In this document: positions 276 through 21,802 of the stretch, one piece after another
Layout: each line of letters opens with the position of its first letter
Position numbering within the stretch: position 1 is the stretch's first letter
Source: Micromonospora zamorensis
Lineage (GTDB): Bacteria; Actinomycetota; Actinomycetes; Mycobacteriales; Micromonosporaceae
NCBI RefSeq assembly: GCF_900090275.1
Contig: NZ_LT607755.1
Span: forward strand, 1,984,001 to 2,048,000
Length of the DNA stretch: 64,000 bases
Direction: 5' to 3'
Position numbers and translations under genes: made by a program
The notes under the pieces: model-generated
Told to the model about the DNA's origin: nothing
Seen by the model: the letters and a program-made list of their open reading frames with translations, nothing else
Databases searched by the model: none

Positions 276-301
276 TTGCCAAGTCTTGCCAGCCCTGGCA
301 A
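276..301. promoter_or_regulatory. Triple TTGCCA box, TauD-gene side
   Basis: TTGCCA at 276, TTGCCA at 286 and TGGCAA at 296 sit exactly 10 bp apart, so the three copies lie on one face of the helix. The outer two form an inverted repeat with 14 bp between them. It lies 114 bp before the dioxygenase start at 162. The same layout recurs at 377. That it is a regulator-binding site is inferred. Confidence 0.6.
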
Positions 302-376
302 CGCCTGAATCCGCAGTATAAGAACTACTTTTCAGTCAGCAGCAACCTCGGCTCGGCGTCCGCCGATTGCTGGCTG

Positions 377-402
377 TTGCCAAATCTGGCAGGCTTTGGC
401 AA
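377..402. promoter_or_regulatory. Triple TTGCCA/TGGCAA box, PLP-enzyme side
   Basis: TTGCCA at 377, TGGCAG at 387 and TGGCAA at 397, again in exact 10-bp steps. The box ends 29 bp before the ATG at 431. Its closeness to the start would suit a repressor site, or an activator of a promoter with a short leader; the sequence does not decide between them. Confidence 0.6.
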
Positions 403-430
403 AGCGCATCGTCTCGTGGGAGGGCTAAAC

Positions 431-1708
431 ATGATCGATACCGAGGCCGTGGAGGCGATCCGCCAGGAGCTGATCACCTGGAGGTACAAGGGGCTGCCGG
501 TGGCGCTGGACGGCTGCACCATCGCCAACGCCGCGGAACGCGGGCTCAACCTGTTCGAGGACGGATTCCTCGGGCCGATGCTCGTGCTCGACGACGACGC
601 CCTGACCCACAACCTCACCACGATGGCGAAGTGGTGCGCCGACCGGGGAATGCAGCTCGCCCCGCACGCGAAAACGACGATGGCGCCGCAGCTCTGGGCT
701 CGCCAGATCGAGGCGGGGGCGTACGGGCTGACTGCGGCCAACACCGCCCAGCTGCGGGTGTACCGCGCCTTCGGGGTGTCCCGAGTCATCTTCGCCAACG
801 AACTGGTCGACAGTGCCGGGCTGCGCTGGGTCGACGAGGAACGGTCCGCGGACCCCGGGTTCGAGTTCGTCTGCTTCGTCGACTCGGTCGAGGTGGTGGC
901 CCAGATGGAAGCCTCGCTGCGTCAGGTGGGTGCAGCGCCGGTGGATGTCCTGGTCGAGGTCGGCCGCACCGCCGGACGGGCCGGGGCGCGGTCGGTGGCC
1001 GAAGCGACGGCGGTGGCCCGCGCGGCCGCGGCCAGCCCACTCCTGCGTCTCGTCGGGGTGGGGGGCTACGAGGGTGTGCTGGTCAACGATCCGTCGCCGC
1101 ACAGCATCTCGGTGGTCAACGAATTCCTGCACCGAATGCGCGAACTGACCATCGCCCTGCATCGCGAGGGACTGTTCGAGACCGACGAGATCCTGCTCAC
1201 CGCAGGGGGCAGCTGCTTCTTCGACCAGGTCGCCGAGGTGTTCGGCGGGCCGTGGCCGGGCATGTCGGTGACCACCGTGCTGCGCAGCGGATGCTATGTC
1301 ACCCACGACGACGGTTTCTACCGGTGGATGTCCCCGTTCTCCCGGGGCGAGGCCGCCAACGGCTCGCTACGGCCGGCCCTGAAGCTGTGGGCGCGGGTCA
1401 CCTCGATGCCGGAGCCAGGGTTGGCCCTGCTGACCGCCGGCAAGCGGGACCTGTCGTTCGATGCCTGGCCGCCGGAACCGCAGCTGGTCCGCGGCGTCGA
1501 CGGCGAGATCCGTGAGCTGGCCGACTGCGCCATCCGCGCGGTCAACGACCAGCACGCCTTCCTCACACTGCCCGCCGGGCACGGGCTCGCGGTGGGGGAC
1601 TGGGTCATGCTCGGACTGTCCTACCCGTGCACGGCCTTCGACAAGTGGCAGCTGATCCCGGTCGTACGGGGCGAAACCGTTGTCGACTTCGTCCGGACCT
1701 ACTTCTGA
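431..1708 (+). CDS. D-serine deaminase-like PLP enzyme (fold III)
   Basis: This 425-residue protein has the alanine-racemase-like barrel and the C-terminal D-serine-dehydratase-like domain of the DSD / D-threonine aldolase family. The PLP lysine is K81 in HAKTTMAP. The domain TAGGSCFFD and the C-terminal block ending CTAFDKWQLIPVV are typical. In the family members I recall, the zinc site near the C-terminus reads HPC; here it reads YPC (Y398, C400), so one metal ligand appears changed. ATG 431 is chosen because GGGAGGG lies just upstream and the family N-terminus starts here. It faces the GNAT gene across a hairpin terminator. In the cluster it probably dehydrates, racemises or aldol-cleaves an amino-acid precursor; which of these is unknown. 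Confidence 0.8.
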   Translation: MIDTEAVEAIRQELITWRYKGLPVALDGCTIANAAERGLNLFEDGFLGPMLVLDDDALTHNLTTMAKWCADRGMQLAPHAKTTMAPQLWARQIEAGAYGLTAANTAQLRVYRAFGVSRVIFANELVDSAGLRWVDEERSADPGFEFVCFVDSVEVVAQMEASLRQVGAAPVDVLVEVGRTAGRAGARSVAEATAVARAAAASPLLRLVGVGGYEGVLVNDPSPHSISVVNEFLHRMRELTIALHREGLFETDEILLTAGGSCFFDQVAEVFGGPWPGMSVTTVLRSGCYVTHDDGFYRWMSPFSRGEAANGSLRPALKLWARVTSMPEPGLALLTAGKRDLSFDAWPPEPQLVRGVDGEIRELADCAIRAVNDQHAFLTLPAGHGLAVGDWVMLGLSYPCTAFDKWQLIPVVRGETVVDFVRTYF

Positions 1709-1717
1709 CGAGGCTGC

Positions 1718-1756
1718 CCGGTGTGGGCGGCGCCGCCGTGGCGACGCCCACACCGG
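1718..1756. terminator. Bidirectional hairpin terminator
   Basis: A 12-bp perfect stem (1718-1729 pairing with 1745-1756, CCGGTGTGGGCG and its complement) closes a 15-base loop. It fills the 67-bp gap between two convergent genes, as expected of an actinomycete terminator without a U-tract. Confidence 0.65.
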
Positions 1757-1775
1757 ACGGCTCGGGCCCCGCTGG

Positions 1776-2657: not shown

Positions 2658-2661
2658 GATC

Positions 2662-3915
2662 TCAACCGTCCTTTCCGCTGCTCGCCGGTGGTCGCGCGCT
2701 CATTCCCCGTAGCCTGGCCGACGCCGACAGTGTCTCGGCCAGACTGCGCCAGGCCTCCGCCGCCAACTCCAGGTTGTGCGCCGCAGTGGCGTTGTGCGCC
2801 AGCCGCTGCAGGTGCGCGATGCCGGCCTCGGTGTCGCCTCCGACGATGGAGAGGCGGCCGCGCAGCACCTCGATCCGCAGCCGATCCCGGAACGACAGGC
2901 GCCCGTCCGAGTCGTCGATCCTGCCGGCCAGATCCTGGGCCTCGGCGAACCGCCCCTCCTCGAACGCCAGGTGTGCCTGCAGGGAGAGCATCTCCTGCTG
3001 GTGCAGCTCGGACCCGATCATCCGCAGCACGGGGGCGACCTCCTCCAGGCGGGCACGTGCCTCCGCAACCTGTGCCGGGGTGCTCTGCAGGTACAGCGAA
3101 GCAGCGGCGAGCCTCAGTCGCACCCACAGCTTGAGATCTTCGTGGCTGTCCAGCAGTCGCAGTGCCTGTTCCAGCATCTCCTGCGAGGCACGGTAGTCAC
3201 CCTGGCGCATGCTGACCGTCGCCGATGCCCACAGCGCCTCCACGTACGCGGTGCCCGGAGTGCCTTCGGTGAGGGCGCACAGCAGGTCGGCGTGCCGGCG
3301 TGCCTCGCTCAGCCGGCCCGCCTCGGCCTCGGTGGGGATCAGCACGTGCAGGGCGGCCGTCCGGTCCGGCAGAGCGAGCGCGGTGGACAGTTTGACGGCC
3401 CGCTCGGCGTACTCGCGGGCCTTCACGATGTCGCCGAGGACCCGCAGGCAGCGCGACATCCGGGTACATGTGCGCACCAGCAGTTCGGGCACGTCAAGTT
3501 CCTCGGCCAGCGCGAGCAGTTCGGTAAGCAACGCGTACGCCGCCTCGTGCGCGCCCTCGTCACTGCGCAGCCCGGCCAGCAGCCACAGGGCCTGCCAGCG
3601 CAGCTCCGGCGCGCGTCCGTCGTCGAGGCGGAGCGCCTCGGCCACGCGTTCGGCGCTGTCGGTCTGCACACCCGACGTGACCGAGGCGAGCACGATTGCC
3701 AGTGTTGCCGACATCGGCTGGGAGAGGAACGCGGCCTCCTCGACCCCGAGCCGCTCTGCCAGGTACGCCACCACACGTGGCGTGGGTTGCCGGGCGCCCG
3801 ACTCCAGCCGCGACAGATAGCCGGTGGAGATGTAATCCCCCGCGAGTGCAGCCTGCGACAGTCCGCGTCCCAATCGGAGGGCCCTCAAGCGTCGACCGAA
3901 CTGCGGCTGATCCAA
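2662..3915 (-). CDS. HTH-TPR transcriptional regulator, copy 1
   Basis: The 417-residue protein has an XRE-type HTH at residues 7-60, with recognition region ISTGYLSRLESGAR, followed by about 300 residues of helical TPR-type repeats with periodic A/L and R. This layout matches RRNPP peptide-receptor regulators and other HTH-TPR proteins. A TTG start at 3915 is chosen because it aligns with the N-terminus of copy 2 at 6664-7932. The two HTHs are almost the same, including the run PTPRVVAYLA, so they should recognise the same DNA. The gene is divergent from the desaturase across a gap holding TTGTCA/TTGCCG boxes. It likely controls this cluster; the ligand is unknown. Confidence 0.8.
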   Translation of the reverse strand: MDQPQFGRRLRALRLGRGLSQAALAGDYISTGYLSRLESGARQPTPRVVAYLAERLGVEEAAFLSQPMSATLAIVLASVTSGVQTDSAERVAEALRLDDGRAPELRWQALWLLAGLRSDEGAHEAAYALLTELLALAEELDVPELLVRTCTRMSRCLRVLGDIVKAREYAERAVKLSTALALPDRTAALHVLIPTEAEAGRLSEARRHADLLCALTEGTPGTAYVEALWASATVSMRQGDYRASQEMLEQALRLLDSHEDLKLWVRLRLAAASLYLQSTPAQVAEARARLEEVAPVLRMIGSELHQQEMLSLQAHLAFEEGRFAEAQDLAGRIDDSDGRLSFRDRLRIEVLRGRLSIVGGDTEAGIAHLQRLAHNATAAHNLELAAEAWRSLAETLSASARLRGMSARPPASSGKDG

Positions 3916-4072
3916 TGTCTCATCCCTGAGGTGTGGGAGGCGGTGCCACTCGGCATCGACTCACATCTGCCGAGACACGCAATCACGGCAGAATGCAGAC
4001 GGGTTGCGGCATCACGAATGTGATCCCCCCAGCGCCTCTTGGTGGCTTGACCGTAGTCGTGGAATAGCGGCC

Positions 4073-4112
4073 TTGTCAACGTCAGGCAACAGCATTGTCA
4101 AAGACGTTGCCG
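4073..4112. promoter_or_regulatory. TTGTCA/GGCAA box array before the desaturase operon
   Basis: TTGTCA at 4073, AGGCAA at 4084, TTGTCA at 4095 and TTGCCG at 4107 are spaced 11, 11 and 12 bp. They lie in the 362-bp divergent gap (3916-4277) between regulator copy 1 and the desaturase, with another TTGCCA at 4232. This is a looser version of the boxes at 276 and 377. Nothing else is seen in this gap. Confidence 0.45.
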
Positions 4113-4277
4113 TCCTCTACCGTCGTCGCTGAGCGCCACCCTGTCCCAGCTCGCCATCCATTCCGCCAGCCGCCGGCTGGTCCCGCGGCCGGTCGCCAGC
4201 GGGCGCTGGGTTCGCCACTGCTGGCGGCCTTTTGCCACGTGCACATTCCGGCGCGTGCCCTCTGCGAGGAGTCTCGA

Positions 4278-5480
4278 ATGGCCTCGGTGAACACCCTCAG
4301 CCCGCCCACCGACCTCGACTTCAGCAAGCTGTCTCCCGAGATCCGGCGCGAGCTGCGCAAGCTGTGCCGGTTGGACAACCACCACGGAATACTCGGCGTC
4401 CTCTTCGACTACGCGGTCGTGGCATTCGCCGTGTATCTCAGCGTGGGCGTGTCGTACTGGTTCTACCCGGTGTCCCTGGTGCTCATCGGGTCCACCCAGC
4501 GTGCCCTGGTCAACCTCCTGCACGAAGCGTCGCACAAGGTGCTGGCACGCAATCAGACCTTGAACCTGGTGCTCAGCACGGTCTTCACCGGGCACCTGGT
4601 GTTCCACATGCACAACCCCTACCGCAGCTCACACATCGGCCTCCATCACCGCTACCTCGGGGACCGGGAGAAGGACCCCGACTACAGCTTCCACGTGGAG
4701 TGCGGCATCTACGATCCGGGCGGCTCCAACCGGGCCTTCTTCCTGCGCAACATTCTCCTTGCGGCTCTGGGTCTGCGAACCCTCGAGTATGTCCGCTACG
4801 TGGTGGAGGACCGGCTGCTGTTCCGCGAGGACCAGATTGCCGTCTCGATGCCGATCAGCCTGCGGGCCGAGCGCTGGCTGCTGCTCGGAGTATGGACGGT
4901 GCTGCTGACCCCGATCGTGTCCGGCGGCTACCTGCTCGAATTCGTCCTGTTCTGGATTGTGCCGCTGTTCACCACCGCGGTCGCCATCGGCTGGCTGTCC
5001 GAACTGGCCGAACACTTCCCGTTGCCGGAGAGCGAGAACAGGCAGATCCTGATGACCCGCAACCGCCACGGCTGGGCCATCGAACGGTTCCTGCTTGGGC
5101 GCCACAACGACAACTACCACCTGGTTCACCACCTCAACACCGGCGTGCCCTTCTGGAACATGAAGAAGGCCCACCGGATCCTGCTCGGCGATCCGGCTTA
5201 CGCGTTGTGGGACGGGATGTGGGCCGGCATCATGACCCGCTCGCCGGGCCGCAGGGACAAGGAAACGCTGATCAGTTACGCCGGGAAATACCGCGAGTGG
5301 CGTCGCACCGGCGGCGATCCCGGCGACCCGGGGCAGCGCAGTTTCGCCGAGATCGCCGCGCTGGCCAGGCACTCGTGGACGCCGCCACCGCAACCACAGC
5401 CGGCACCGCTGCCCGCGCCGGCACGACCAGTGGCGGCGGCGCCTGCGGAGTCGCCGGTACCGGCCAGGGCCCGACGATGA
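4278..5480 (+). CDS. Membrane diiron fatty-acid-desaturase-like enzyme
   Basis: This 400-residue integral membrane protein has the three histidine boxes of the membrane desaturase superfamily: HEASH (residues 82-86), HIGLHH (119-124) and HLVHH (281-285, preceded by HNDNY). Hydrophobic segments lie at about residues 45-75 and 200-245. The last 40 residues are a Pro/Ala-rich tail. ATG 4278 has GAGGAG 6 bases upstream. It overlaps the next gene by ATGA. Members of this superfamily desaturate, hydroxylate or make alkynes on lipid or carrier-bound chains. In this cluster it may modify an amino-acid or acyl precursor; that is inference. Confidence 0.85.
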   Translation: MASVNTLSPPTDLDFSKLSPEIRRELRKLCRLDNHHGILGVLFDYAVVAFAVYLSVGVSYWFYPVSLVLIGSTQRALVNLLHEASHKVLARNQTLNLVLSTVFTGHLVFHMHNPYRSSHIGLHHRYLGDREKDPDYSFHVECGIYDPGGSNRAFFLRNILLAALGLRTLEYVRYVVEDRLLFREDQIAVSMPISLRAERWLLLGVWTVLLTPIVSGGYLLEFVLFWIVPLFTTAVAIGWLSELAEHFPLPESENRQILMTRNRHGWAIERFLLGRHNDNYHLVHHLNTGVPFWNMKKAHRILLGDPAYALWDGMWAGIMTRSPGRRDKETLISYAGKYREWRRTGGDPGDPGQRSFAEIAALARHSWTPPPQPQPAPLPAPARPVAAAPAESPVPARARR

Positions 5481-6613
5481 CGGCTGGCATGATCCACCTC
5501 AACACCGCCGGCGCGGGCCTGCCGGCCCCCGGCGTCACGGCCGCGATGACCGGCTACCTCGAGGCGGAGGCCACGGCCGGGCCGTACGAAGCCGAACAGG
5601 CCCGCGCCGACGATCTCACCCACCGGGTGTACGCCGTGCTCGCGGACCTTGTCGGTGCGCAAGCGGAGCACATCGCCCTGTTCGCCAGTGCCACCGACGC
5701 GTGGTGCCGGATCGCGTGCCATCTCACCCTGCCCCAGGGAAGTCGAATCTGGACGACCCCCTACGAGTACGCGGGCAACCTCATCGCCCTGCAGCGGCTT
5801 GCCGCCCGCCGCAAGTGTTCCCTCGAGGTGATCCCGGTGGGCGGCACCGGCGACCTGGACCTGGAGTGGATGCGCGCCCACCTCGACGATCGGGTGGCGC
5901 TGGTGTCCGTGGTCCATATGCCGTCGGCGGTCGGGCTGATCCAGCCGGTCGAGCAGATCGGCGCGCTGCTGGCCGGCTCCGCGGCGGTGTACGTGGTGGA
6001 CGCGTGCCAGACGGTGGGCCAGATCCGCGTCGACGTCGATGCGATCGGCTGCCACGCGCTCACCGCGGCGGGCCGCAAGTTCCTGCGCGGCCCGCGCGGC
6101 ACCGGCTTCGCCTACCTGCGCCCCGACCTGTGGGACCGGATCGACCCCGTGTTCTACGACCTGCACGTCGCGCAGGCGCTTTCGCTGCACGAGCACCGGT
6201 GCGACGTGGACACGGCGGCCCGGTTCGAGACCGCCGAACGTGGCAACGCCGCGGTACTCGGCCTGCTCGCCGCCGCCGAGTACGCCCGCGCCGCATCGCT
6301 GGCGCCGACGGCCGAGGTGTACGCGGCACTGACCGCCACCATTCGGCAGACACCCGGTGCCCGGCCACTGATGCCCGGTAGCCGACACAGCGGCATCGCG
6401 TCCTTCACGCACGACCGGCTGCCGCCGGAACGGATCCGTGACGCCCTCGCCGACGACGGGCTCAACACCTGGGTCGGCGTGGGCGCGCACACTCCGCTGT
6501 ACCTGGCCGCGGCCGGGATCGAACGGTTCGTGCGCACGTCGGTGCACCACTACAACAGCCTTGCCGACATCGAGGCGTTCGGCCGGTCGCTGCGCCGGAT
6601 CTGCGCCGCCTGA
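5477..6613 (+). CDS. Class V PLP-dependent enzyme (EgtE / epimerase-like)
   Basis: The 378-residue protein opens with HLNTAGAGL, has the strand VVDACQTVGQ with the PLP-ring aspartate, and carries the Schiff-base lysine K201 in AAGRKFLRGPRGTG. This places it in aminotransferase class V, near cysteine-desulfurase-like, isopenicillin-N-epimerase-like and EgtE-type C-S lyases. The start overlaps the desaturase stop (ATGA), so the two are translationally coupled. No loop cysteine typical of cysteine desulfurases was seen, so epimerisation, beta-elimination or transamination is more likely than sulfur transfer. It acts in the cytoplasm, presumably on an amino-acid precursor of the cluster product. 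Confidence 0.8.
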   Translation: MTAGMIHLNTAGAGLPAPGVTAAMTGYLEAEATAGPYEAEQARADDLTHRVYAVLADLVGAQAEHIALFASATDAWCRIACHLTLPQGSRIWTTPYEYAGNLIALQRLAARRKCSLEVIPVGGTGDLDLEWMRAHLDDRVALVSVVHMPSAVGLIQPVEQIGALLAGSAAVYVVDACQTVGQIRVDVDAIGCHALTAAGRKFLRGPRGTGFAYLRPDLWDRIDPVFYDLHVAQALSLHEHRCDVDTAARFETAERGNAAVLGLLAAAEYARAASLAPTAEVYAALTATIRQTPGARPLMPGSRHSGIASFTHDRLPPERIRDALADDGLNTWVGVGAHTPLYLAAAGIERFVRTSVHHYNSLADIEAFGRSLRRICAA

Positions 6614-6663
6614 CCGATGTTGAAATGGCCTGCCGTCGAGGGGCGAACGGGCACCGGACCGGT

Positions 6664-7932
6664 TCAGCCGGTGGCGGCTCGGCCGGCGAGGGCAGGGCCG
6701 TCACCGTACGGCTTGGCCAGGGTCTCCGCGAGGTTGCGCCACAGCTCGGCGGCGAGCTCGACGTTGTGGGCCTCGTCGGCCTGGCGGGCGAGGTCCTGCA
6801 GCGCCCGGATGCCGCCCTCGGCCTCACCGCCCAGAATGGACAGACGCGCGTGTAGGGCGGCGAGCTTGAGCCGATCGCGGAACGACAGCAGCGAACGCTG
6901 GGAGGCGGCCGCCTCGCACAGCACGCGCGCGTCGTCGAGCCGCCCCTCGGCGAACGCCAGGTGAGCCTGGAGGCTCTGCAACTCCTGGTGCTGACGCTCG
7001 GTGCCGATCAGGTTCAGGACCGGGCCGACAGCATCGAGTGCGGTGCGGGCCTGCGACGGCTGCGCCGGAGTGATCTGCAGATACAGCGAGGCGGCGGCCA
7101 GGTGCAGCCGGATCCACAGCTGCAGGTCGTTGCGGCTGTTCGCGCCGGACAACGCCTCCTCCAGATAGGCGATGGCGCCGGCGTGGTCACCCTGGCGGGT
7201 GCGGACCGTCGCGGCCGACCAGAGTGCCTCGACGTGCAGCGTCCCGCCGGCAGGCTTGGTGAGGTGGCACAACTCGTCGGCGTGGGTGCGGGCCTCATCG
7301 AGCTGGCCCGCCTCGGCCAGCGCGGAGACGAGGGCCTGCAGGGTCGCCGCGCGGTCGGTGAGCGACAGCTCGTCGGCGATGCTGTGCGCCTGCTGCGCGT
7401 ACTCCCGGGCGCCGGTGGTGTCGCCGAGGGTGCGCAGGCAACGCGACAGCTGGGTCTGCGCGCGGGCCAGCAGCGGCGCGACGCCGAGTTGCGTGCTCAG
7501 CTTGACCAGCTCCTCCAACAGGTGGCGCTGCTCGTCGCGCTCGCCGGCGTCACCGCGGATCTCCGCGAGCAGCCAGAGCGCCTGCCAACGCTCGGCCGGG
7601 TCTCGCTGGCCGTCGGTACGCAGCGCCTCGGCCAGTGGTTCGGCGACGCGGTCGTCACCGCTGGCGGAGATCATCGCGGCCAGGATCTGGGTGAACGGGG
7701 AAGCTTGCACGACGTTCACCGGGTCGGCGTTCGGGTCTTCCAGGACCGAGGCCGGCACGCCGAGGCGCTGCGCGAGGTACGCCACCACACGGGGGGTCGG
7801 ACGCCGGGCCCCGGACTCGAGGCGGGAGAGGTAGCCGGTGGAGATTCCACCCTTTGCCAGCGCCGCCTGGGAAAGGCCGCGCTTTTCGCGCAGTGCGCGA
7901 AGCCGGGGCCCGAACTCGGACTGCTGCAGCAT
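6664..7932 (-). CDS. HTH-TPR transcriptional regulator, copy 2
   Basis: This 422-residue paralogue of the regulator at 2662-3915 has an HTH at residues 9-61 (LSQAALAKGGISTGYLSR) and then TPR-type helices to the C-terminus. ATG 7932 is preceded by GGGGG at 6 bases; frame-open sequence further upstream is not protein-like and was excluded. Copy 2 faces the class V enzyme tail to tail. Its upstream gap holds TTGCC boxes at 8009 and 8085-8123, so it may regulate itself. Two receptor-type regulators in one cluster suggest either two ligands or an activator/antagonist pair. Confidence 0.8.
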   Translation of the reverse strand: MLQQSEFGPRLRALREKRGLSQAALAKGGISTGYLSRLESGARRPTPRVVAYLAQRLGVPASVLEDPNADPVNVVQASPFTQILAAMISASGDDRVAEPLAEALRTDGQRDPAERWQALWLLAEIRGDAGERDEQRHLLEELVKLSTQLGVAPLLARAQTQLSRCLRTLGDTTGAREYAQQAHSIADELSLTDRAATLQALVSALAEAGQLDEARTHADELCHLTKPAGGTLHVEALWSAATVRTRQGDHAGAIAYLEEALSGANSRNDLQLWIRLHLAAASLYLQITPAQPSQARTALDAVGPVLNLIGTERQHQELQSLQAHLAFAEGRLDDARVLCEAAASQRSLLSFRDRLKLAALHARLSILGGEAEGGIRALQDLARQADEAHNVELAAELWRNLAETLAKPYGDGPALAGRAATG

Positions 7933-8084: not shown

Positions 8085-8123
8085 TTGCCTCCACGGGTTG
8101 CCGGCGCGTTGCCGCGTCGGCAA
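8085..8123. promoter_or_regulatory. TTGCC box array before regulator copy 2
   Basis: TTGCCT at 8085, TTGCCG at 8098, TTGCCG at 8109 and CGGCAA at 8118 lie between the end of the glutamine-synthetase-like gene (8139) and regulator copy 2 (7932). A single TTGCCA is at 8009. Spacing is 13, 11 and 9 bp, less regular than at 276 or 377. The minus strand also holds a TATACT at about 8040 that could be a -10 element. Confidence 0.4.
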
Positions 8124-8138: not shown

Positions 8139-9554
8139 TCAGAACCGGGTGTTGTGCAGGGCGTACACCTCCGACTCGGGCATCGCCGCCAGGTCGCGAA
8201 CGTCTGCGCGCTTGATCGCGGTGTAGAGGTCCCGGCGGGGCGAACCCAGCACCGACATCAACAGCTCGTCGCGCTCCAACGCGGCAACCGCCTCAGCCAG
8301 GCTGGCGGGCAGGACGGTGACCCCGCGGCGCCGCAGTTCCGCGTCGGACAGGGTGTTCGGGTCGACGGTCAGTGGCGGGCCTGGATCGAGCCGCCGCCGT
8401 ACCCCGTCCAACCCGGCATGGATGACGGCGCCCAGCGCCAGGTACGGGTTGGCGGTGCCGTCGCATGGCTTGATCTCGACGTTGGTGGTGCCGGACTCGT
8501 CGCCGCCCAGCACCGACGGGACCCGGACCGCGGCCTCGCGGTTGTCGAAGCCGTAACACCCGTAGGCACCGGCCCACCTGCCCCGCACCAGCCGCGCGTA
8601 ACTGTTGACACTGGGGCACAGCAGGGCGGTGAGCGCTGGCAGGTGCGTCAGCACCCCGGCGATGAAGTGGTGCGCGACGTCCGACAGCCCCGCTCCGGGC
8701 GCGGCGAACGCGTTGCCGTCGCGCCAGAGGGACACGTGCAGGTGGTTGCCATTGCCGCGCAGCCCCGACAGCGGCACCGGGGCGAACGTGGCGCGCAGCC
8801 CGTGCTGCCGGGCCAGACCACGGGTGAGTATCCGCTGCCACACGTGGTTGTCGGCGGCACGCAGTGCCGGGGCGGGCCGGACCGTGACCTCGTGCTGGCC
8901 CGGAGAGGTCTCCGGGTGGTACTGCTCCACCGCCACACCGACCGAGCGCAAGGCGCGGATCAGCGCGATCACGTAGCCGTTGGTGACGTCGAACGCCTCG
9001 TTGTCGAGCGTGAGCCCGTCGTCGAACGGCACCCCGTCGCGCAGCAGCGTGAACTCCGGTTCGAACGCGGCCACGACGGCGTACCCCTCCTGGTGGGCCT
9101 CGGCCACGGCGTCGCGGAGGAACGCCCGCGGACACGCACCCCACGGGGCGCCGTCCCTGGTGAGCAGGTCACCGAGCATCGCCGCGGAGCCCGGCGCGTG
9201 CGGCAGCAGCGCCAGGGTGTCCGGGTCGGCGGAGATGCGCACCTCGTCCATCACCGCGAACCCCGGCACCGGCTGGGCCTGGTCCAGCAGGCTCGCCGCC
9301 TGGCGACCCACCGACAGCGGCACCCCCGACCGTAGCCGGCCGGGGAGCACCTCCCGGCCCACGCCCTTGCCCCGGAGGATCCCGTTGTGGTCCACCCACA
9401 GGAAGCGGACGATCTCCAGGTCGTGCCGCTCGACCAGTGCCAGGACGTCCGCCGCGGTCCGGCGCGGCGACCCGTCCACGGGACCGACGTCGTCGGCGGG
9501 TGAACGGGGCAGGCCGGTGGTCACAGATCCCAGCGCGGCGGAGGTGATCGTCAC
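8139..9554 (-). CDS. Glutamine-synthetase-like amide ligase
   Basis: The 471-residue protein has the glutamine synthetase fold: VDHNGILRGK in the N-terminal beta-grasp domain, FEPEFTLL (metal ligands), GNGNHLHVSLW (ATP/metal site), NSYARLVRG, NREAAVRVPS, and EIKPCDGTANPYLALG near the C-terminus. The last block resembles FluG/PuuA-type relatives rather than housekeeping GlnA. It starts with GTG 9554, overlapping the thioesterase stop as GTGA, and ends the leftward biosynthetic operon. Relatives in secondary metabolism form gamma-glutamyl amides or other amides with ATP. It probably glutamylates or amidates an amine intermediate or product; the substrate is unknown. Confidence 0.85.
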   Translation of the reverse strand: MTITSAALGSVTTGLPRSPADDVGPVDGSPRRTAADVLALVERHDLEIVRFLWVDHNGILRGKGVGREVLPGRLRSGVPLSVGRQAASLLDQAQPVPGFAVMDEVRISADPDTLALLPHAPGSAAMLGDLLTRDGAPWGACPRAFLRDAVAEAHQEGYAVVAAFEPEFTLLRDGVPFDDGLTLDNEAFDVTNGYVIALIRALRSVGVAVEQYHPETSPGQHEVTVRPAPALRAADNHVWQRILTRGLARQHGLRATFAPVPLSGLRGNGNHLHVSLWRDGNAFAAPGAGLSDVAHHFIAGVLTHLPALTALLCPSVNSYARLVRGRWAGAYGCYGFDNREAAVRVPSVLGGDESGTTNVEIKPCDGTANPYLALGAVIHAGLDGVRRRLDPGPPLTVDPNTLSDAELRRRGVTVLPASLAEAVAALERDELLMSVLGSPRRDLYTAIKRADVRDLAAMPESEVYALHNTRF

Positions 9555-15300: not shown

Positions 15301-15358
15301 CGGGAAACCTGCCGGCCATGCCGGATACGGCGATGTCGAGGGAACGGTCGCGTGCCAT
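12350..15358 (-). CDS. Type I PKS module KS-AT-ACP
   Basis: This 1002-residue protein has a ketosynthase with C177 (TACSSS), H312 (HGTGT) and H352 (NTGHLDNA). The acyltransferase has GQGAQ, S619 in GHSLG, and RAFH at 717-720, which resembles the HAFH of malonyl-specific domains. The carrier serine is S952 (GGDSLS). The stretch between AT and ACP is too short for KR, DH or ER domains, so a beta-ketone should be left. It is first in the leftward operon with the A-T, thioesterase and GS-like genes. It probably extends an aminoacyl unit by one C2 unit. The start ATG follows AAAGGTGG. Confidence 0.93.
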   Translation of the reverse strand: MARDRSLDIAVSGMAGRFPGSSELTQWWDALTAGQVLTRRYQRQELASEGVPPDLLDDPDYVAVHGHLADADRFDHVLFRMSPREAEMLDPQHRLMLECAWSALEDAGANPLDTGLTTGVFASASSSDYLRRMVAGGQLTPLTLEDALHGTEPDFLASLLSYRLNLNGPALAVQTACSSSLVAVHLAAQALLNGDCDQALVVAAGMAFPQAGHLHVPGGIHSPTGHCRPFDASADGIVAGSGVACVVLRRLADALDDGPAPHGVILGTAINNDGSAKAGYYAPSVEGQQAVIRAALRAADVDGDSIGYLESHGTGTRIGDPIEWAAASAALRASGARPGQVAVGALKANTGHLDNAAGVAGLIKAIMVVREGVIPPVAGHSTLNPLLEHDGSPLYVPGQARSWPGTEPRRAGVSAFGVGGTNAHVVVEQPPVDSTARRGASTGRHLVVLSAADGAALDRAATRLAAHLRTHDVLPQDVVRTLATGRAHLAERLAVIGTDTDELAERLASRGTTARGRVPATGPAPLVFAFPGQGAQYPGMARPLAADLPGFSAALATVLDEYDPTTAELVGRALLDPGFPADDLAETALAQPALFAVEYAAAMALRGLGLHPAAVTGHSLGEITAACVAGVLDLADAARLVTVRGAAMQQCPPGAMLALTCGEQDTADLVHASGLALETAAVNSPDHTVVAGPPDVVDAFEAWLSGRVRARRLRSRRAFHTALVDAAVAPLREALAGMRLGPPTLPWATNSGELLLPGAPVGATLFTAQARHTVRFGPSLQRLGERFTDAVVVEVGPGHALSILAESGGLTAVPLCGGRPGADDEAVPDALGRLWTVGQPVDIDATWPTGRRVHLPGYAFHGPRHLAVEARPAPAGHNPSAVVPLPVTAAASAATVFATGRDDGIGAAPGTDRPAGAFEQDVPSLLGRLWTDLLGRDQLSDDADFFALGGDSLSITHLARRLRTELGIRVPIRDLMTRPTLGDHTSMCRALVDSDRAPVAVG

Positions 15359-15426: not shown

Positions 15427-15464
15427 TTGCCAGTAGGTTGCCAGACTAGGCAATGTCATGGCAA
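15427..15464. promoter_or_regulatory. Four-copy TTGCCA/GGCAA array in the PKS/NRPS divergent promoter
   Basis: TTGCCA at 15427, TTGCCA at 15438, AGGCAA at 15448 and TGGCAA at 15459 are spaced 11, 10 and 11 bp. They sit in the 174-bp gap that separates both biosynthetic operons (starts at 15358 and 15533). A single array could therefore control both directions. It is the best multi-copy match to the boxes near position 300. Confidence 0.6.
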
Positions 15465-15532: not shown

Positions 15533-18500
15533 GTGCACGCAGACCCGCGATGGTCGGTCGGCTCGCCCAACACCGCTCCGGCGGAAGGGCTGCACCAGAC
15601 CGTGGCCCGGCAGGCGCGGTGCCGACCCGGCGCCGCCGCCGTCGTGGAGGGCCCTCGCACGATCACGTACGCGCAGCTCGACGCCGCCGCGGATGCCTGG
15701 GCGGCGGGCCTGGTCGCCGCCGGGGTGCGACCCGGCGACCGGGTGCCGATCCTGCTGCCACGCAGCGCCGACCTGGTCGTCGCGCTGCTGGCAGTGCTCA
15801 AGACCGGAGCCGCCTACTGCCTGCTGCCGCCGGACTGGCCCGCGCCGCGCCTCGACGCCGTGCTCACGGACCTGCGGCCCCCACTGGTGGTCACCGGCAC
15901 CGAACCAGCCGGAGACCTTGCGGCGCCGGCATGGCCGATCTCGGCCGCACCGGTCAGCGCGGGCCCCGGTTTCCGGTCTGTGGCCGTCGCCGCTGCCGAC
16001 CCGTGTTGCGTCTTCTTCACCTCCGGCACGACTGGTCGGCCGAAGGGGGTGGTCAGCCCGCACGGGGCCACGGCCCGCCTGTTGCAGCCCGGCGGCTTCG
16101 CCCGCTTCGACCACCGGACGGTGATCCCGCTCGCGGCCGCCACCCCCTGGGACGCGTTCTCCCTCGAACTGTGGTCCGCCCTGCTCAACGGCGGCACCTC
16201 GGTGATCGTGGCCGATCCCTACCTGTCGGCGTCGGCCCTGCGCCACGGGGTGGCCCGGCACGGTGCGAACACCGCGTGGTGCACCGCAAGCCTGTTCAAT
16301 CTGATCATGGACGAGGCGCCCGACGCGTTCGAGGGCCTGGACCAGGTGATGATCGGCGGGGAGCGGTTGTCCGTGCCGCACGTACGCCGGTTCCTGGCGC
16401 TGTATCCCGACACCGTCCTGCTCAACGGTTACGGCCCGGTCGAGTGCACGGTCTTCGCGACCACCCACCGCATCGGCGCCGACGACTGCGAGCGGCCCGG
16501 CGGCATTCCGCTCGGGCGACCCGTGCCCGGCACCGAGGTGTACGTGTTGGACGGACAGCGCCCCTGCGCTGTCGGCGAAACCGGCGAGATCTGCCTGGCC
16601 GGCGACGGCCTGGCGATCGAGTACCTCGGTGACCCCGCCCTCACCGCCGTCAAGTTCACCCGGATCCGCGTCGGCGATCGTGACGTCCGCGTCTACCGCA
16701 CCGGCGACCTCGGCACCTGGGACGAGGACGGACTGCTGCACCTGAGCGGCCGCGCCGACCGTCAGCTCAAGATCCGTGGCAACCGGGTGGAGCCGGCCGA
16801 GGTCGAACGCCAGATCGAGGAACTGCTCTCCGACGTACGGCACTGCCGGGTGGTGGCCCGCGCCACCGGGCGCGGCGACCGGGAGCTGGTGGCGTTCTGC
16901 GTGCCCGTCCGCGACGGTGACCCGCTGCCCGATGCGACGTCCCGGATCCGCGACGCGCTCGTCGCCTACCACCGTCCGGCCGCAGTGGTCAGCGTCGGCG
17001 CGTTTCCGCTCACGGCCCAGGGCAAGCTGGACGAGCGGGCGCTGCTGGCGCTGCTGACACCCCCCGCCGTCAACTCCGACCCGGTCGCGGGCTGCGACCC
17101 GGCCACCCTCGGCGACCCGGTGCTGCGTGACGTCGCCGAGTGCTCCGCCGCCGTCCTCGGTGTCGGCACGATCCCGCTGGACACGCCGTTCCCCGAGATG
17201 GGCCTGACCTCGCTCGACGCCGGCCGGGTGTGTGCCCGTCTCTCGGCGCGCACCGGCATTCCGGTGCCGGTGTCCTGGCTGTACGAGTACCCGACAGTCA
17301 CCGGCCTTGCTCGCCGGCTGTCCGACGCGACCGCCGTCCCGGGGGCAGGGCGGGAGGCGGCCCTGTCAGTACCCGACGACGACGCGGCCCCGCTGACCGC
17401 CGTCCAGGTCATGCAACTGACCCGGGAACTGCTGAACCCGGCCGACCGTACCGGGCACTGCCTGCTCAGCTGGGTCGTCGAGGGCGAACTCGACAGGTCG
17501 GCCCTGTCCGTCGCGATCGCTGCCGTACACCTGCGCCACGAGTCACTGCGCGCGGCATACCTGCTCGACCCGGAGCCGGCGGCGTATCCCGACGACGTGC
17601 CGGCGCCCGCGCTGACTGTGCTGCCGCCGCAGGCCGGCGTCGACGCGGCCCTCGCCGCCGCCCGCGAGGTGCTCGCCGCGCCGCTGGCACCGCAGGACGC
17701 CCAGGTGTGGCACACCGTCCTCGTGCCTGTCGACGTGCCGGAGCCGGCAGCGCCCACGGCCGTGTTCGGATGCGCGGTGCACCACGTCGCCTTCGACGGC
17801 TGGTCCGAGGCCGTCCTCGCCAACGATCTCAGCACCGCGTACCGGATCGCCCTGGGCGGCGCCAACCCCGACCGGGTCGCGGTCGCGCTCGGGCCCGGCC
17901 CGGCCCTGGCCGACCTGGTCCGCGCCGAACTGGCCCGCTGCCGGCTGGCCGAGCCCGAACGCCGCCTCGCCGAGGTGCGCGCCGCCCTGGCGGGTGTGCC
18001 GCCGTTGCGGTGGTCGTCCGATCCGTCAACCCTCGACGGCGACGGCACGGGTTCCGACGGCCGCGTCGCATTCGCCGAGTTCGCCGCAGCCGACGGTGCG
18101 ACCGCGTTCGACCCCTCCACCGGCACGACGGCACCAGCTGCGATCGTGCCGATCAGGTCGCGTCGGCAACCCGAGCGGGTCGAGGTCAGGCTGGCCGCGG
18201 ACGCCCTCGCGGCCGTTGACGCCGCCGCCGCAGCAGCCAACGTCACCCGCTTCGTCGTCCTCCTCGCCCTCTGGGCGGCCAGCGTCGCCGACGTCACCGG
18301 CCAGCGGGACGTCGCCTTCGGGGTGCCGGTGGCCCGCCGCGACGACCCCGCCCTGGAAGGCGCGATCGGCTGCCACATCACCATGGTCTGCCTGCGGCTG
18401 CGCGATGCCGCGTGCGCCGGCGACACCGGTGCCGTCCGGATCGTGGGCCGCAACGTCCAACAGATGCTCGCGGCCCAGAGTCTGGCCGGATTCCACCTGC

Positions 18501-18781
18501 TCGGCGAGGCTGGGCGGCCACCGGCGTACCAGACGCTGTTCGCCTACCAGAACAATGCCTTACCCGAGCTGGAGCTTCCGGACGCCCGCGTCACCTTCGT
18601 CCGGCAGCCGTATCTCGACCTGCCCTTGGACTTGCACGCCGAGCTGTGGCCCGACGGCGAGGGCCTGCGGCTGGAGGTCACGTACAACCCCGCGGTGGTC
18701 ACCGAGAAAACCGCGGCCGACCTCGCCAAGCACTTTTCCGAGTACGTGTACAGCCAGGCGACGGGAGCAGTCCGGCCATGA
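15533..18781 (+). CDS. NRPS A-T-C protein
   Basis: The 1082-residue protein has an adenylation domain (about 20-510: FFTSGTTGRPKG, NGYGPVE, YRTGD, QGKLDERALL), a carrier domain with S560 (GLTSLDA), and then a C-terminal condensation domain (about 620-1075) with the active-site motif HHVAFDG near residue 750. The order A-T-C is reversed from the usual C-A-T. The specificity positions read D-A-L-C-M-G-G-V-F-K by eye, close to some codes for small hydrophobic residues such as valine. GTG 15533 follows GAGGGG. Its stop overlaps the P450 start (ATGA). The C domain probably joins this residue to the ketide-aminoacyl partner. Confidence 0.9.
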   Translation: MHADPRWSVGSPNTAPAEGLHQTVARQARCRPGAAAVVEGPRTITYAQLDAAADAWAAGLVAAGVRPGDRVPILLPRSADLVVALLAVLKTGAAYCLLPPDWPAPRLDAVLTDLRPPLVVTGTEPAGDLAAPAWPISAAPVSAGPGFRSVAVAAADPCCVFFTSGTTGRPKGVVSPHGATARLLQPGGFARFDHRTVIPLAAATPWDAFSLELWSALLNGGTSVIVADPYLSASALRHGVARHGANTAWCTASLFNLIMDEAPDAFEGLDQVMIGGERLSVPHVRRFLALYPDTVLLNGYGPVECTVFATTHRIGADDCERPGGIPLGRPVPGTEVYVLDGQRPCAVGETGEICLAGDGLAIEYLGDPALTAVKFTRIRVGDRDVRVYRTGDLGTWDEDGLLHLSGRADRQLKIRGNRVEPAEVERQIEELLSDVRHCRVVARATGRGDRELVAFCVPVRDGDPLPDATSRIRDALVAYHRPAAVVSVGAFPLTAQGKLDERALLALLTPPAVNSDPVAGCDPATLGDPVLRDVAECSAAVLGVGTIPLDTPFPEMGLTSLDAGRVCARLSARTGIPVPVSWLYEYPTVTGLARRLSDATAVPGAGREAALSVPDDDAAPLTAVQVMQLTRELLNPADRTGHCLLSWVVEGELDRSALSVAIAAVHLRHESLRAAYLLDPEPAAYPDDVPAPALTVLPPQAGVDAALAAAREVLAAPLAPQDAQVWHTVLVPVDVPEPAAPTAVFGCAVHHVAFDGWSEAVLANDLSTAYRIALGGANPDRVAVALGPGPALADLVRAELARCRLAEPERRLAEVRAALAGVPPLRWSSDPSTLDGDGTGSDGRVAFAEFAAADGATAFDPSTGTTAPAAIVPIRSRRQPERVEVRLAADALAAVDAAAAAANVTRFVVLLALWAASVADVTGQRDVAFGVPVARRDDPALEGAIGCHITMVCLRLRDAACAGDTGAVRIVGRNVQQMLAAQSLAGFHLLGEAGRPPAYQTLFAYQNNALPELELPDARVTFVRQPYLDLPLDLHAELWPDGEGLRLEVTYNPAVVTEKTAADLAKHFSEYVYSQATGAVRP

Positions 18782-20022
18782 CCATCAGCACCATTCCGGC
18801 CACCACCACCGAGCCAGCGGAGACCGACGCGTCCGGCCGGGCCATTGCCGGCACGCCGCCGCTGTCCCAGCTCACCGACTCGGACCTGTACGCCACCGGC
18901 GATCCGCACCCACTGTGGGCGTGGATGCGCGCCGAAGCCCCGGTGCACTGGCAGCCCGCGACCGAGCTGCCCGGATTCTGGTCACTGACCAGGCATGCGG
19001 ACATCCGCGCGGTCTACCAGGACAGCGCCACGTTCAGCTCGGCGCAGGGCGTGCTGCTGCGGCCAGCCGCAGCCGGCCCCGATCCGGGCGGCAACCTCAC
19101 GCTCGCGCTCACCGACGCCCCCCGCCACAAGCAGTTGCGGACGCTGATGGCCGGTTGGTTCAACACCCGCGCGGTGCGGGCGTTGGAGGGCTACGTGCGC
19201 GCCAGTGTCCGAGGCGTCCTGGACCGCGCGGCAGAGCAGGACACCTGCGACTTCGCCACCGACGTGGCGGGACGGCTGTCCCTGATGACGATCGCGCACA
19301 TCCTCGGGGTGCCCGAAGACGACCACGACAAGCTGTACCGATGGACCGACGAGGCTTTCGCGGCCCACAGCTCGCTCGTCTCCCACCCCGACATCGTCGA
19401 CTACTTCATGGACCTGCTGTACCGCCGGATGGAGGAACCGACCGACGACCTGGTGAGCGCGCTGCTGCACGGCACCGTGGGCGGTGACCTGCTCACCGAG
19501 ATCGAGGTCGTGCTCAACTGCGAGAACCTCATCGGTGCCACCGAGAACGGCCGGCTGGCCCTCATTGGCGGGGCACAGGCGTTACTCGAACACCCGCAGC
19601 AGTGGAAACGCCTCGCTCAGGACCGTGCGCTGTTGCCCAGCGCGATCGAGGAGATCATGCGGTGGACATCGAGCGCCACCCACAGCGTGCGGACCGCCAC
19701 GCGCCCGTACGAACTGCGCGGGCAGCGCATCGCCCCCGGCGACAAGGTCGTGCTCTGGCTTCCCTCCGCCAACCGTGACGAGGACGTGTTCACCGACCCG
19801 TACGAGTTCGACATCACGCGTACGCCGAATCGGCACATCGCCCTCGCCGTCGGTGAGCACTTCTGCATCGGTGCCACGCTGGCCCGGGCACAGATGCGGG
19901 TGCTCTTCTCCGAACTGCTCGACGGGGCGTACGCGATCGAGTTGGACGGCCCGGTCCGCCGGGTCAGCTCGATCGCTGTCAACGGCACGGAGAGCCTGCC
20001 GGTCCGGCTGCGGGCACGGTAA
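18778..20022 (+). CDS. Cytochrome P450
   Basis: This 414-residue soluble bacterial P450 has the ExxR pair (EEIMRW), and the haem ligand C363 in VGEHFCIGATLAR. The usual FGxG before the cysteine is relaxed to LAVG. In the I helix the sequence is IGATENGR, where most P450s have (A/G)GxxTT: the conserved threonine is replaced by N257 while the acid is kept. It is translationally coupled to the A-T-C gene, which suggests it may work on carrier-bound intermediates. Hydroxylation, desaturation or a less usual oxidation are all possible. Confidence 0.92.
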   Translation: MTISTIPATTTEPAETDASGRAIAGTPPLSQLTDSDLYATGDPHPLWAWMRAEAPVHWQPATELPGFWSLTRHADIRAVYQDSATFSSAQGVLLRPAAAGPDPGGNLTLALTDAPRHKQLRTLMAGWFNTRAVRALEGYVRASVRGVLDRAAEQDTCDFATDVAGRLSLMTIAHILGVPEDDHDKLYRWTDEAFAAHSSLVSHPDIVDYFMDLLYRRMEEPTDDLVSALLHGTVGGDLLTEIEVVLNCENLIGATENGRLALIGGAQALLEHPQQWKRLAQDRALLPSAIEEIMRWTSSATHSVRTATRPYELRGQRIAPGDKVVLWLPSANRDEDVFTDPYEFDITRTPNRHIALAVGEHFCIGATLARAQMRVLFSELLDGAYAIELDGPVRRVSSIAVNGTESLPVRLRAR

Positions 20023-20135
20023 CCGGCGACCACCGCCGCGCCCGCCCGGCAATCAGGCCCTGATCGCTCGGCGTCCTGGAGCCGCGGTGGTCGTCGCGTA
20101 CGCCCGCACCATCACCGAATCCTCGGGAGGACACT

Positions 20136-20543
20136 GTGCCAACACCCCGCATCACCCACCTGGCCGAGCCCGCCGGTGTGCAGCCAAGCTCCGGCTACAC
20201 CCACGTCGTCGTCGCGCGGGGCCGGCTCGCCGCCATCGCCGGGCAGATGGCGTTCGACGCCGATGGGGAGCTGGTCGGCCCCGGCGATCCCGAGGCGCAG
20301 GCGCGGCAGGTCTTCACCAACATGGGCCGCTGTCTCGCCGCAGCCGGCGGCAGCTTCGACGACGTCGTCAAGCTCACCTGGTTCGTCACCGACGTCGCGT
20401 TCGTACCGACGGTGCTGGCGGTGCGCGACGAGTTCATCGACACCTCCCGGCCACCGGCCAGCACCGTCGTGCAGGTGGTCGCGCTCTACCGCCCGGACCT
20501 GCTGCTCGAAGTGGACGCTCTGGCACTGCTGGAGGAGGCGTGA
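20136..20543 (+). CDS. RidA/YjgF-family protein
   Basis: The 135-residue protein matches the RidA family in length and in blocks such as IAGQMAFDADGELVG, the region FDDVVKLTWFVTD, and RPPASTVVQV. The usual C-terminal IEVDALA block reads LEVDALA. RidA enzymes hydrolyse enamine/imine products of PLP enzymes. The start is GTG 20136 after GGGAGG. The 113-bp gap after the P450 gene holds a weak 9-bp stem (20028-20036 with 20084-20092). Its stop overlaps the next start (TGATG). With two PLP enzymes in the cluster it may process a reactive imine or guard against one. Confidence 0.85.
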   Translation: MPTPRITHLAEPAGVQPSSGYTHVVVARGRLAAIAGQMAFDADGELVGPGDPEAQARQVFTNMGRCLAAAGGSFDDVVKLTWFVTDVAFVPTVLAVRDEFIDTSRPPASTVVQVVALYRPDLLLEVDALALLEEA

Positions 20544-21526
20544 TGACCGGGACCGCGGCCGCCGCAGCCCCACCACCGTTCGACCCCGAGTTGGCCGGTC
20601 CGCTGTCGGAGATCCTGTCCGAGCTGCCGATGCCACTCACCGCCGACCTGATCGCCGACCGACGGCAACGCTCCCGGACCGGCCGTCTGACCGACGCGCA
20701 GATCCGCCGCGATGGGGCGTTCGAGATCGAGGAACGGAAGGTCCCCGGCCCGGCCGGTGCCCCTGACATCACTCTGCTGATCTGCCGACCGGTGGGCGTC
20801 ACCACGCCGGTTCCGGTGGTCTACCACACCCACGGCGGCGGCATGGTGGCCGGCAGCCACCGCAGCACCGAGCTGATCGGCGAGCTCGACCGAGCTCAGG
20901 CGCTCTCCCTCGCCGTGGTGTCGGTCGAATACCGGCTCGCGCCCGAGCACCCGGATCCGGCCCCGGTGGAGGACTGCTATGCCGGGCTGCTGTGGCTCGC
21001 CAGTCACGCCACCTCCCTCGGCCTTGATCCCGAGCGGATCGTCTTGAGCGGTAACAGTGCCGGTGGCGCCCTGGCTGCCGGCCTGGCCCTGCTCGCGCGG
21101 GACCGCGGTGGTCTCAGGCCCAAGGGGCAGCTGCTGCAGTTCCCGATGCTGGACGACCGGTGCGCCTCGGACTCCTGCCGTCAGCTCGGCCGGGTCGGCC
21201 TGTGGGACGGGCTGTCCAATGAAGCGGGCTGGACCGCGCTGCTCGGCGAGCGCCGAGGCCTGCCGGCAGTGTCCTGTTACGCCGCTCCGGCGCGGGCGAC
21301 GGACCTGTCCGGTCTGCCGCCAGCCTTCATTGAAGTGGGCTCGGTTGAGGCGCTGCGCGACGAGGGCATCGAGTACGCGAGCCGGATCTGGCGTGCCGGC
21401 GGGCAGGCCGAACTGCACGTCTGGTCGGGCGCGTTCCACAGTTTCGACGAGTGGGTACCTACCGCCACGGTGTCTCGAACCGCCCACCAGGCCCGCGTTG
21501 GCTGGCTGAAGCGGGTGCTCGGCTGA
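20543..21526 (+). CDS. HSL-type alpha/beta hydrolase (esterase)
   Basis: This 327-residue enzyme has the oxyanion motif HTHGGGMVAG and the nucleophile elbow LSGNSAGGALA of the hormone-sensitive-lipase/acetyl-esterase family. A late AFHSFDEW carries the catalytic histidine. The start overlaps the RidA stop, so it closes the rightward operon A-T-C, P450, RidA, esterase. A hairpin follows at 21553. It may hydrolyse an ester or amide protecting group, or help release the product, since the assembly line lacks a terminal thioesterase domain. Confidence 0.88.
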   Translation: MTGTAAAAAPPPFDPELAGPLSEILSELPMPLTADLIADRRQRSRTGRLTDAQIRRDGAFEIEERKVPGPAGAPDITLLICRPVGVTTPVPVVYHTHGGGMVAGSHRSTELIGELDRAQALSLAVVSVEYRLAPEHPDPAPVEDCYAGLLWLASHATSLGLDPERIVLSGNSAGGALAAGLALLARDRGGLRPKGQLLQFPMLDDRCASDSCRQLGRVGLWDGLSNEAGWTALLGERRGLPAVSCYAAPARATDLSGLPPAFIEVGSVEALRDEGIEYASRIWRAGGQAELHVWSGAFHSFDEWVPTATVSRTAHQARVGWLKRVLG

Positions 21527-21552
21527 CCGAGGCCGGCCAGCAGCCGCGGGGG

Positions 21553-21585
21553 AGCCGGGTCACCGCCGTGTGGGTGGTCCCGGCT
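21553..21585 (+). terminator. Hairpin after the rightward biosynthetic operon
   Basis: AGCCGGG (21553-21559) pairs with CCCGGCT (21579-21585), and the inner CACC can pair with GGTG. It starts 26 bases after the esterase stop and is likely a factor-independent terminator without a U-tract. Confidence 0.45.
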
Positions 21586-21753
21586 CGACGCATGGGTGGG
21601 GATCTACGCTGTCCGAGACAACGGACTTGGCATATGCGAGGCAACACGGGAGGTCTCCCGTGTCTGTGCTCTGGTCGATGAATGTGCGGCTACGTGCCGG
21701 TGGCATGGCCGTCCTGTCCCTATCTGTGCCGTATTTCCGCACCTTAACCGTAG

Positions 21754-21802
21754 TTGCCTAAACGGAGATTCACTCGTGCCAACCTCTGGCAAAACCTTGC
21801 CA
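21754..21802. promoter_or_regulatory. TTGCCA/TGGCAA array before the short signal-peptide gene
   Basis: TTGCCT at 21754, GTGCCA at 21776, TGGCAA at 21787 and TTGCCA at 21797 show steps of 22, 11 and 10 bp. The array lies in the 380-bp gap after the esterase, about 105 bp before the GTG at 21907. Its presence suggests that the downstream short gene belongs to the same regulon as the cluster. Confidence 0.5.

Follow-up and report, generated by a model that had tools for sequence, protein, structure and literature searches.

Helically phased TTGCCA/TGGCAA arrays as likely operators of a proposed WP-peptide/XRE-TPR quorum-sensing system in Actinomycetota

Which protein, answering to which signal, would occupy a set of short repeats that recurs in the promoter gaps of one biosynthetic cluster? 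The question is raised by a 64,000-nucleotide stretch of the Micromonospora zamorensis genome (bases 1984001–2048000 of a single-contig genome of 7.10 Mb, 7,095,932 bp, G000; hereafter the window), in which TTGCCA/TGGCAA half-sites form phased arrays upstream of cluster genes. Judging from sequence comparisons, we consider it quite likely that these arrays are operators of a quorum-sensing system of Actinomycetota, in which a peptide carrying a Trp-Pro (WP) motif would be read by regulators with an XRE-type helix-turn-helix (HTH) and tetratricopeptide repeats (TPR). A preliminary description of the window had placed arrays at six sites and taken them for a cluster-specific regulon motif. The sites, to which no strand is assigned, are:

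276..301: phased array of three exact half-sites, TTGCCA/TTGCCA/TGGCAA, in 10-bp steps; divergent promoter of a TauD dioxygenase gene and a D-serine-dehydratase-like gene
377..402: phased array of three half-sites, ~29 bp 5' of the start codon at 431
4073..4112: array of mismatched half-sites TTGTCA/AGGCAA/TTGTCA, then TTGCC; divergent promoter of regulator A and a desaturase-like gene
8085..8123: irregular TTGCC/GGCAA group, ~150 bp upstream of regulator B
15427..15464: phased array of four half-sites; divergent promoter of the polyketide synthase (PKS) operon (minus strand) and the nonribosomal peptide synthetase (NRPS) operon (plus strand)
21754..21802: phased array with an inward palindrome GGCAA-N4-TTGCC at 21788-21801; upstream of a peptide gene

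We scanned 83.7 kb (the window and 19.7 kb leftward) for at least three copies of TTGCCA/TGGCAA in 10- or 11-bp steps with ≤1 mismatch, the strict scan demanding at least one exact half-site per array and the relaxed scan no exact copy. The strict scan recovered 276-301, 377-402, 15427-15464 and 21776-21802; a TTGCCT at 21754 stands two turns to the left of the last of these. Only the relaxed scan recovered 4073-4100, where the half-sites follow each other in 11-bp steps. Five of the six reported places were thus found by scanning, but the sixth, 8085-8123, was missed by both scans: it is irregular, with TTGCC at 8085, 8098 and 8109 and GGCAA at 8119 (steps of 13, 11 and ~9–10). In 30 Markov-1 resamplings the strict scan returned 0 arrays and the relaxed scan 0.07 arrays per resampling (maximum 1). 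The strict scan also found an array 4.3 kb beyond the window's left edge (position −4265; G000:C1:1979735-1979761), and the cluster therefore extends past that edge. This seventh array separates an MFS exporter/L-amino-acid ligase operon from a TauD gene.

That no further phased array lies elsewhere in the window, as first noticed, is borne out by the 83.7-kb scan. The originally proposed pattern (TTGCCA-N4-NNGNNN-N4-TGGCAA, 10–11 bp steps), which the arrays at 4073, 8085 and 21754 do not fit, has four matches in the 7,095,932 bp of the genome, all within the cluster; the reversed pattern, used as control, has 0 forward and 1 reverse. Off the cluster there is no array in the 83.7 kb and no strict match in the genome, which favours the preliminary description over an equal density of arrays in random intergenic regions. 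Within this genome the motif does match in the cluster only, but it is not peculiar to it and belongs to a family-wide system.

A sister species of the same genus (G116) also has the cluster, 85.9% identical in DNA over 28.6 kb. In the six intergenic regions the array bases are kept at 26/27, 45/52 (two arrays), 38/40 (the 4073-4112 array), 36/39, 36/38 and 40/49 positions, and in all six the flanks of the aligned stretch, gene ends included, are less alike than the arrays. The cores of the 8085 group are kept, but ~30 extra bases separate the first two cores in G116. Among 160 genomes of the genus, only G000 and G116 have at least three pattern matches, and only these two have two regulator homologs at E ≤ 1e-30; at least one homolog occurs in 11/160. 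The TKGCMA form of the pattern admits TGGCCA and TTGCAA, which explains most of the matches listed in 43/160 genomes. Two candidates were set aside. The TATAAG considered as a −10 box beside the 276-301 array is not kept in the sister species. Sites of the TGGCAATTAATGGCAA type (TGGCAATTAATGGCAA...TTGCCA; G004, G083, G101, G162, G164) are probably unrelated operators: at L118, L133 and L141 (in G004, G083 and G101), the three loci read, the adjoining gene looks LacI-like by eye and no XRE-TPR relative lies within 3 kb. The gene beside a related site at L135 likewise looks LacI-like.

The cluster encodes two candidate array-binding proteins, 54–56% identical to each other:

2662..3915, minus strand: regulator A, 417 aa, XRE HTH plus TPR repeats (Pfam)
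6664..7932, minus strand: regulator B, 422 aa, XRE HTH plus TPR repeats (Pfam; structure model)

Their Pfam content (HTH_31/HTH_3 plus TPR) is the architecture of RRNPP receptors, an XRE HTH followed by a C-terminal TPR superhelix. The model of regulator B is all-helical with a mean predicted local distance difference test score of 91.9, and Foldseek matches to the regulator model include Rap and PlcR (on a second look Rap, NprR and AimR). In sequence, the HTH matches ComR (E 2e-10), PlcR (positions 4-109, E 8e-6) and 5w4m (positions 6-101, E 1e-4), the last labelled merely Transcriptional regulator, which we take to be Rgg.

Do arrays accompany such regulators elsewhere? Relatives were drawn from one genome per species (84,980 species scanned), taking the best 80 of 115 candidates, and 16 Rhodococcus/Prescottella loci that match the regulators in the HTH alone served as controls. 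The 63 relative loci, in Streptomyces, Micromonospora, Amycolatopsis, Nonomuraea, Actinoplanes, Actinomadura, Lentzea, Actinokineospora and others, encode proteins 43–57% identical to the regulators (62 near full length, L101 partial). Arrays of TTGCC/GGCAA phased at 10.5 bp are present in 56/63 of these loci (6–21 kb read each) and in 0/16 controls; there are 93 in total, overlapping registers counted, and none appeared in any of three shuffles per locus. Duplicate loci (e.g. L046 = L163, the same place) were kept in the discovery counts 56/63, 42/72 and 22/72. After merging, and with the window included, 3/86 arrays lie inside predicted genes, though genes make up 83% of the sequence, and 46/86 are flanked by divergent gene pairs. 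Several genera, represented among others by the window, L040, L041, L053 and L078, have an array in the gap between divergent NRPS/PKS genes (families 1 and 4). One genome, G007, has the regulator and an open reading frame (ORF) with GEIDWP, without an array. We dropped the idea that a recognition-helix residue (SAAY versus STGY) sets the presence of arrays, because the SAAY-bearing Micromonospora homologs L164-166, which lack an array by scan, have degenerate phased half-sites by inspection, and the SAAY homologs L239 and L242 (same genomes as L256 and L255) do have arrays.

Pooling these loci, with nine near-copies left out of the spacing and palindrome counts, gave a view of operator anatomy. 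Intergenic TTGCC/GGCAA core pairs within 60 bp (n=640) peak at spacings of 10, 21, 31 and 43 bp; 353/640 lie no more than 1 bp from a multiple of 10.5, compared with 24/80 inside genes and 22% expected, and the helical phasing first proposed for the window is thereby upheld. The commonest half-site arrangement is the inward palindrome GGCAA-N4-TTGCC, with 73 occurrences in 193 kb of intergenic DNA; it precedes many regulators as well as the window's peptide gene. A −10-like TANNNT box lies exactly 17 or 18 bp past the right half-site in 39/146 readings (both directions); no other spacing between 8 and 27 bp accounts for more than 3 readings. The right half-site would therefore be the −35 box, with the palindrome centre near −38. 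Such a promoter position fits either class-II activation or blocking by a bound protein. TTGCCAA and its complement TTGGCAA differ in the middle base alone, which may explain the free orientation of half-sites.

What signal might such regulators receive? The array at 21754-21802 at first had no apparent gene to serve; the gene behind it, overlooked in the preliminary description, starts 104 bp downstream:

21907..22023, plus strand: unannotated peptide gene, 38 aa, GTG start with GGAG upstream, candidate pheromone precursor

Its product, VRRCAMIAVAVLVSVLCTTSPASASDIDWPVAPTSSAR, has a signal-peptide-like N-terminus followed by DIDWPVAPTSSAR and contains DIDWP. In the sister species seven codons differ in amino acid (start codon included), and DIDWPVAP and the reading frame are kept, whereas the DNA to the right of the gene has diverged; pN (nonsynonymous) of 0.12 and pS (synonymous) of 0.17 are not decisive.

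In three further genomes of the genus, ORFs ending in DIDWP precede regulator genes, and many more occur across all loci. A short non-genic ORF with [IVLK][DEG]WP is found in 42/72 regulator loci (8 of the 72, G116 and L163-L169, counted with no gene filter) and in 0/16 controls. A few of these arise by chance (L085, L168 and L169 within the 42); order-permuted motifs occur in 1–5 of 72 loci and the look-alike [IVLK][RSA]WP in 17/72 of the same loci. The ORF lies ≤1.5 kb from the regulator start in 28/63 loci. Several precursors carry three or four WP copies (three in L053, four in L072, four in the second ORF of L082 at 16948-17295; also L075 and L249) and recall multi-copy pheromone precursors. 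Those of L058, L065, L089, L093 and L098 have DDDIGWP and no evident signal peptide. At L234 (7754-13154) the genes next to a regulator and a SIDWP peptide encode a malic-enzyme-like protein, an adenylosuccinate synthetase and a formyl transferase, and may make up a cluster for an inhibitor of nucleotide metabolism that includes a self-resistance copy.

Held-out loci came from a single genus (392 genomes; Streptomyces, judging from identity with named records), and 65 of these genomes, about one in six, have the regulator at E ≤ 1e-60. By rank and contig convenience, and with arrays and peptides unseen, we took 40 stretches that hold 41 of the 76 matches listed; removal of L214 and L216, identical to earlier loci, left n=38, in which 8 regulators are 75–92% identical to earlier ones. 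An ORF of 20–160 codons with a C-terminus of exactly [IVL][DE]WP is present in 22/38 of these loci, compared with 0/16 controls, 0 in five shuffles and 0 for order-permuted motifs. Of the 38 loci, 30 have a regulator ≤51% identical to its earlier best match, and 19 of these 30 hold the ORF; 20 of the 22 ORFs start ≤500 bp from the regulator. We relied on the exact motif because the looser one (25/38) also picks up some ORFs that arise by chance (L251 and the second one of L222). A hydrophobic segment (13-mer with mean ≥1.9) occurs in 15/22 held-out precursors versus 61/2159 other ORFs, and in 16/23 discovery precursors versus 112/5230 other ORFs.

Across the 392 genomes, IDWP followed by TGA has 21 matches, spread over 20 genomes; the regulator was found in 10 of these genomes and not in the other 10. 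By eye, seven matches end precursor-like ORFs (signal-peptide-like start, spacer, IDWP), all in regulator genomes; six adjoin the regulator, and the seventh (G656) is 29 kb away on the contig that holds it. The matches in regulator genomes G740, G866 and G844 are not precursor-like, and L269 (G733, no regulator found) has a hydrophobic IDWP ORF with no spacer ahead of IDWP. This search is not a second independent test, because its seven ORFs overlap the discovery and held-out loci.

Together these observations suggest the following mechanism. The gene at 21907-22023 would yield a secreted precursor containing DIDWP, from which a short WP-containing peptide would be freed, build up and go back into the cell. 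There it would bind the TPR domain of the cytoplasmic regulators A and B, which, as dimers or short multimers on the helically phased half-sites, would control how strongly the pheromone gene, the regulator genes and the divergent biosynthetic operons are transcribed. Directly observed are the arrays and how well they are kept, the regulators that accompany them, the WP-peptide family linked to those regulators and the predicted fold; the steps from export and maturation of the peptide through its uptake to the binding of peptide and DNA, and whether control is positive or negative, are inferred. The −35-overlapping palindrome in the regulator-linked promoters of relatives would suit class-II activation (autoinduction) or peptide-relieved repression, and we slightly favour activation. 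More broadly, Actinomycetota likely possess a widespread RRNPP-like peptide language, with precursors ending in (I/V)(D/E)WP, XRE-TPR receptors and phased TTGCCA arrays controlling natural-product genes.

Could the regulators bind the arrays while the WP peptide is no signal at all? It might instead be the precursor or scaffold of a ribosomally synthesized natural product (RiPP); the regulators belong to natural-product clusters, and NRPS, PKS and ATP-grasp L-amino-acid ligase genes occur in several of these, and the multi-copy cores are like those of some RiPP precursors. Yet the peptide family stays constant as the enzymes vary, from NRPS/PKS in the window to an aminotransferase and KAS III at L164 and the malic enzyme set at L234, and its constant partner is the TPR regulator. 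No RiPP-modification family stood out in the 48 proteins given to Pfam, most neighbours being unannotated, and we regard this account as improbable. Nor is it likely that the regulators on the arrays respond to a small molecule or to an intermediate of the cluster, with the WP ORF a separate small secreted protein, given the linkage of that ORF to the regulator and the clustering of peptide class on the receptor tree (twelve rows left out). As for the bound protein itself, SARPs (Streptomyces antibiotic regulatory proteins) bind heptamer repeats at 11-bp spacing, and a BTAD protein family (family 6) is present in 17 loci, both of which count towards a SARP-like regulator on the 10–11 bp phased repeats. 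Regulators A and B have HTH_31 and TPR, with only HTH and TPR families in Pfam and neither BTAD nor an OmpR-type DNA-binding domain. Family 6 is absent from the window region and from the mapped array-bearing loci of other genera, L039-L047, L049 and L055 (BTAD outside family 6 was not sought), and a SARP-like binder appears very improbable.

Several observations weigh against a WP-peptide/XRE-TPR quorum-sensing system. TPR folds are generic: LGN, MalT and APPBP2 score equal to RRNPP receptors in fold, and in sequence ordinary XRE repressors, C-proteins and consensus TPR proteins match equally well or better, several of the repressors and C-proteins matching the HTH better than PlcR. The window's peptide gene lies 14–18 kb away from the regulators, with one peptide for two regulators, and no conserved −10 at the palindrome spacing was seen at the window's own biosynthetic arrays. 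No recognisable peptide accompanies 34/101 regulator rows, 7/22 held-out precursors have no hydrophobic segment, and a bare C-terminal WP is unspecific (6/16 controls). Arrays occur in 19/38 held-out loci, below the first set, the regulators being mostly more distant. L127 (G064) and L146 (G114) hold three-copy TTGCCA/TGGCAA sites, with no XRE-TPR relative within the 3 kb that were read, and the clustering of peptide class on the receptor tree is partly owing to near relatives.

The genes that such a system would control, listed below, belong to a small NRPS/PKS cluster whose left side holds L-amino-acid ligases, TauD oxygenases and an exporter:

431..1708, plus strand: D-serine dehydratase/alanine racemase-like pyridoxal-phosphate enzyme, likely target gene
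4278..5480, plus strand: fatty-acid-desaturase fold; nearest NCBIfam model GntB
5477..6613, plus strand: class-V aminotransferase-fold enzyme
8139..9473, minus strand: glutamine-synthetase-like ligase
9551..10303, minus strand: thioesterase (scanned as 9551-10306)
10303..12270, minus strand: NRPS module A-PCP
12350..15358, minus strand: PKS module KS-AT-ACP
15533..18781, plus strand: NRPS A-PCP-condensation (scanned from 15602)
18778..20022, plus strand: cytochrome P450
20136..20543, plus strand: RidA-like protein (Ribonuc_L-PSP)
20543..21526, plus strand: alpha/beta hydrolase

The protein of 4278..5480 scores 323.6 bits against GntB, short of that family's cutoff of 380; GntB is an arginine gamma-hydroxylase that acts in guanitoxin biosynthesis. 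The desaturase-fold and aminotransferase-fold families (4278-6613) recur at other regulator loci, 7 and 19 respectively with the window counted.

If a WP-peptide/XRE-TPR system operates here, a gene-encoded peptide would be a cheap, sequence-predictable inducer for silent antibiotic clusters, and responsive clusters could be predicted from arrays, receptor and WP peptide occurring together. Since about one sixth of the genomes of the sampled genus have the receptor, synthetic WP peptides might activate many clusters that are now silent. To our knowledge, peptide-pheromone signalling of the RRNPP type has so far been described mainly in Firmicutes. We found no report of a DIDWP/IDWP or RRNPP system in Streptomyces or actinobacteria in the open-licence literature, as far as its accessible passages go, subscription papers and preprints being outside that scope. 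In the passages available, PMC10075063 describes actinobacterial signals as typically small molecules and limits its RRNPP survey to Firmicutes and viruses, and PMC4748050 reviews quorum sensing in actinobacteria with no TPR receptor named in those passages.

How, then, does the proposed system compare with known ones? It shares with RRNPP/RRNPPA systems (ComRS, PlcR-PapR, Rgg-SHP, NprR-NprX, Rap-Phr and AimR-AimP) an XRE HTH plus TPR receptor, a small secreted-looking propeptide gene nearby and inverted-repeat operators. It differs in its phylum, Actinomycetota, in WP-terminal peptides that sometimes occur in several copies per precursor, in extended operator arrays phased at 10.5 bp and in its linkage to natural-product clusters. 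The ComR-box, in the part of PMC5131891 that prints it, has a GACA-N4-TGTC core, with a gap equal to that of GGCAA-N4-TTGCC. Gamma-butyrolactones, according to the passages of PMC4748050 at hand, are a form of actinobacterial cell-cell signalling that controls antibiotic production, and cell-cell signals governing antibiotic production are the likeness to the system proposed here. The difference is that the peptide is gene-encoded and the lactone enzymatically made. Gamma-butyrolactone receptors are of the TetR type, unlike the receptor here. Finally, SARP activators (AfsR, ActII-ORF4 type) likewise have regularly phased repeats near −35 and act in antibiotic clusters, whereas the system here would use an unrelated DNA-binding domain, mixed inverted and direct half-sites and a peptide partner.

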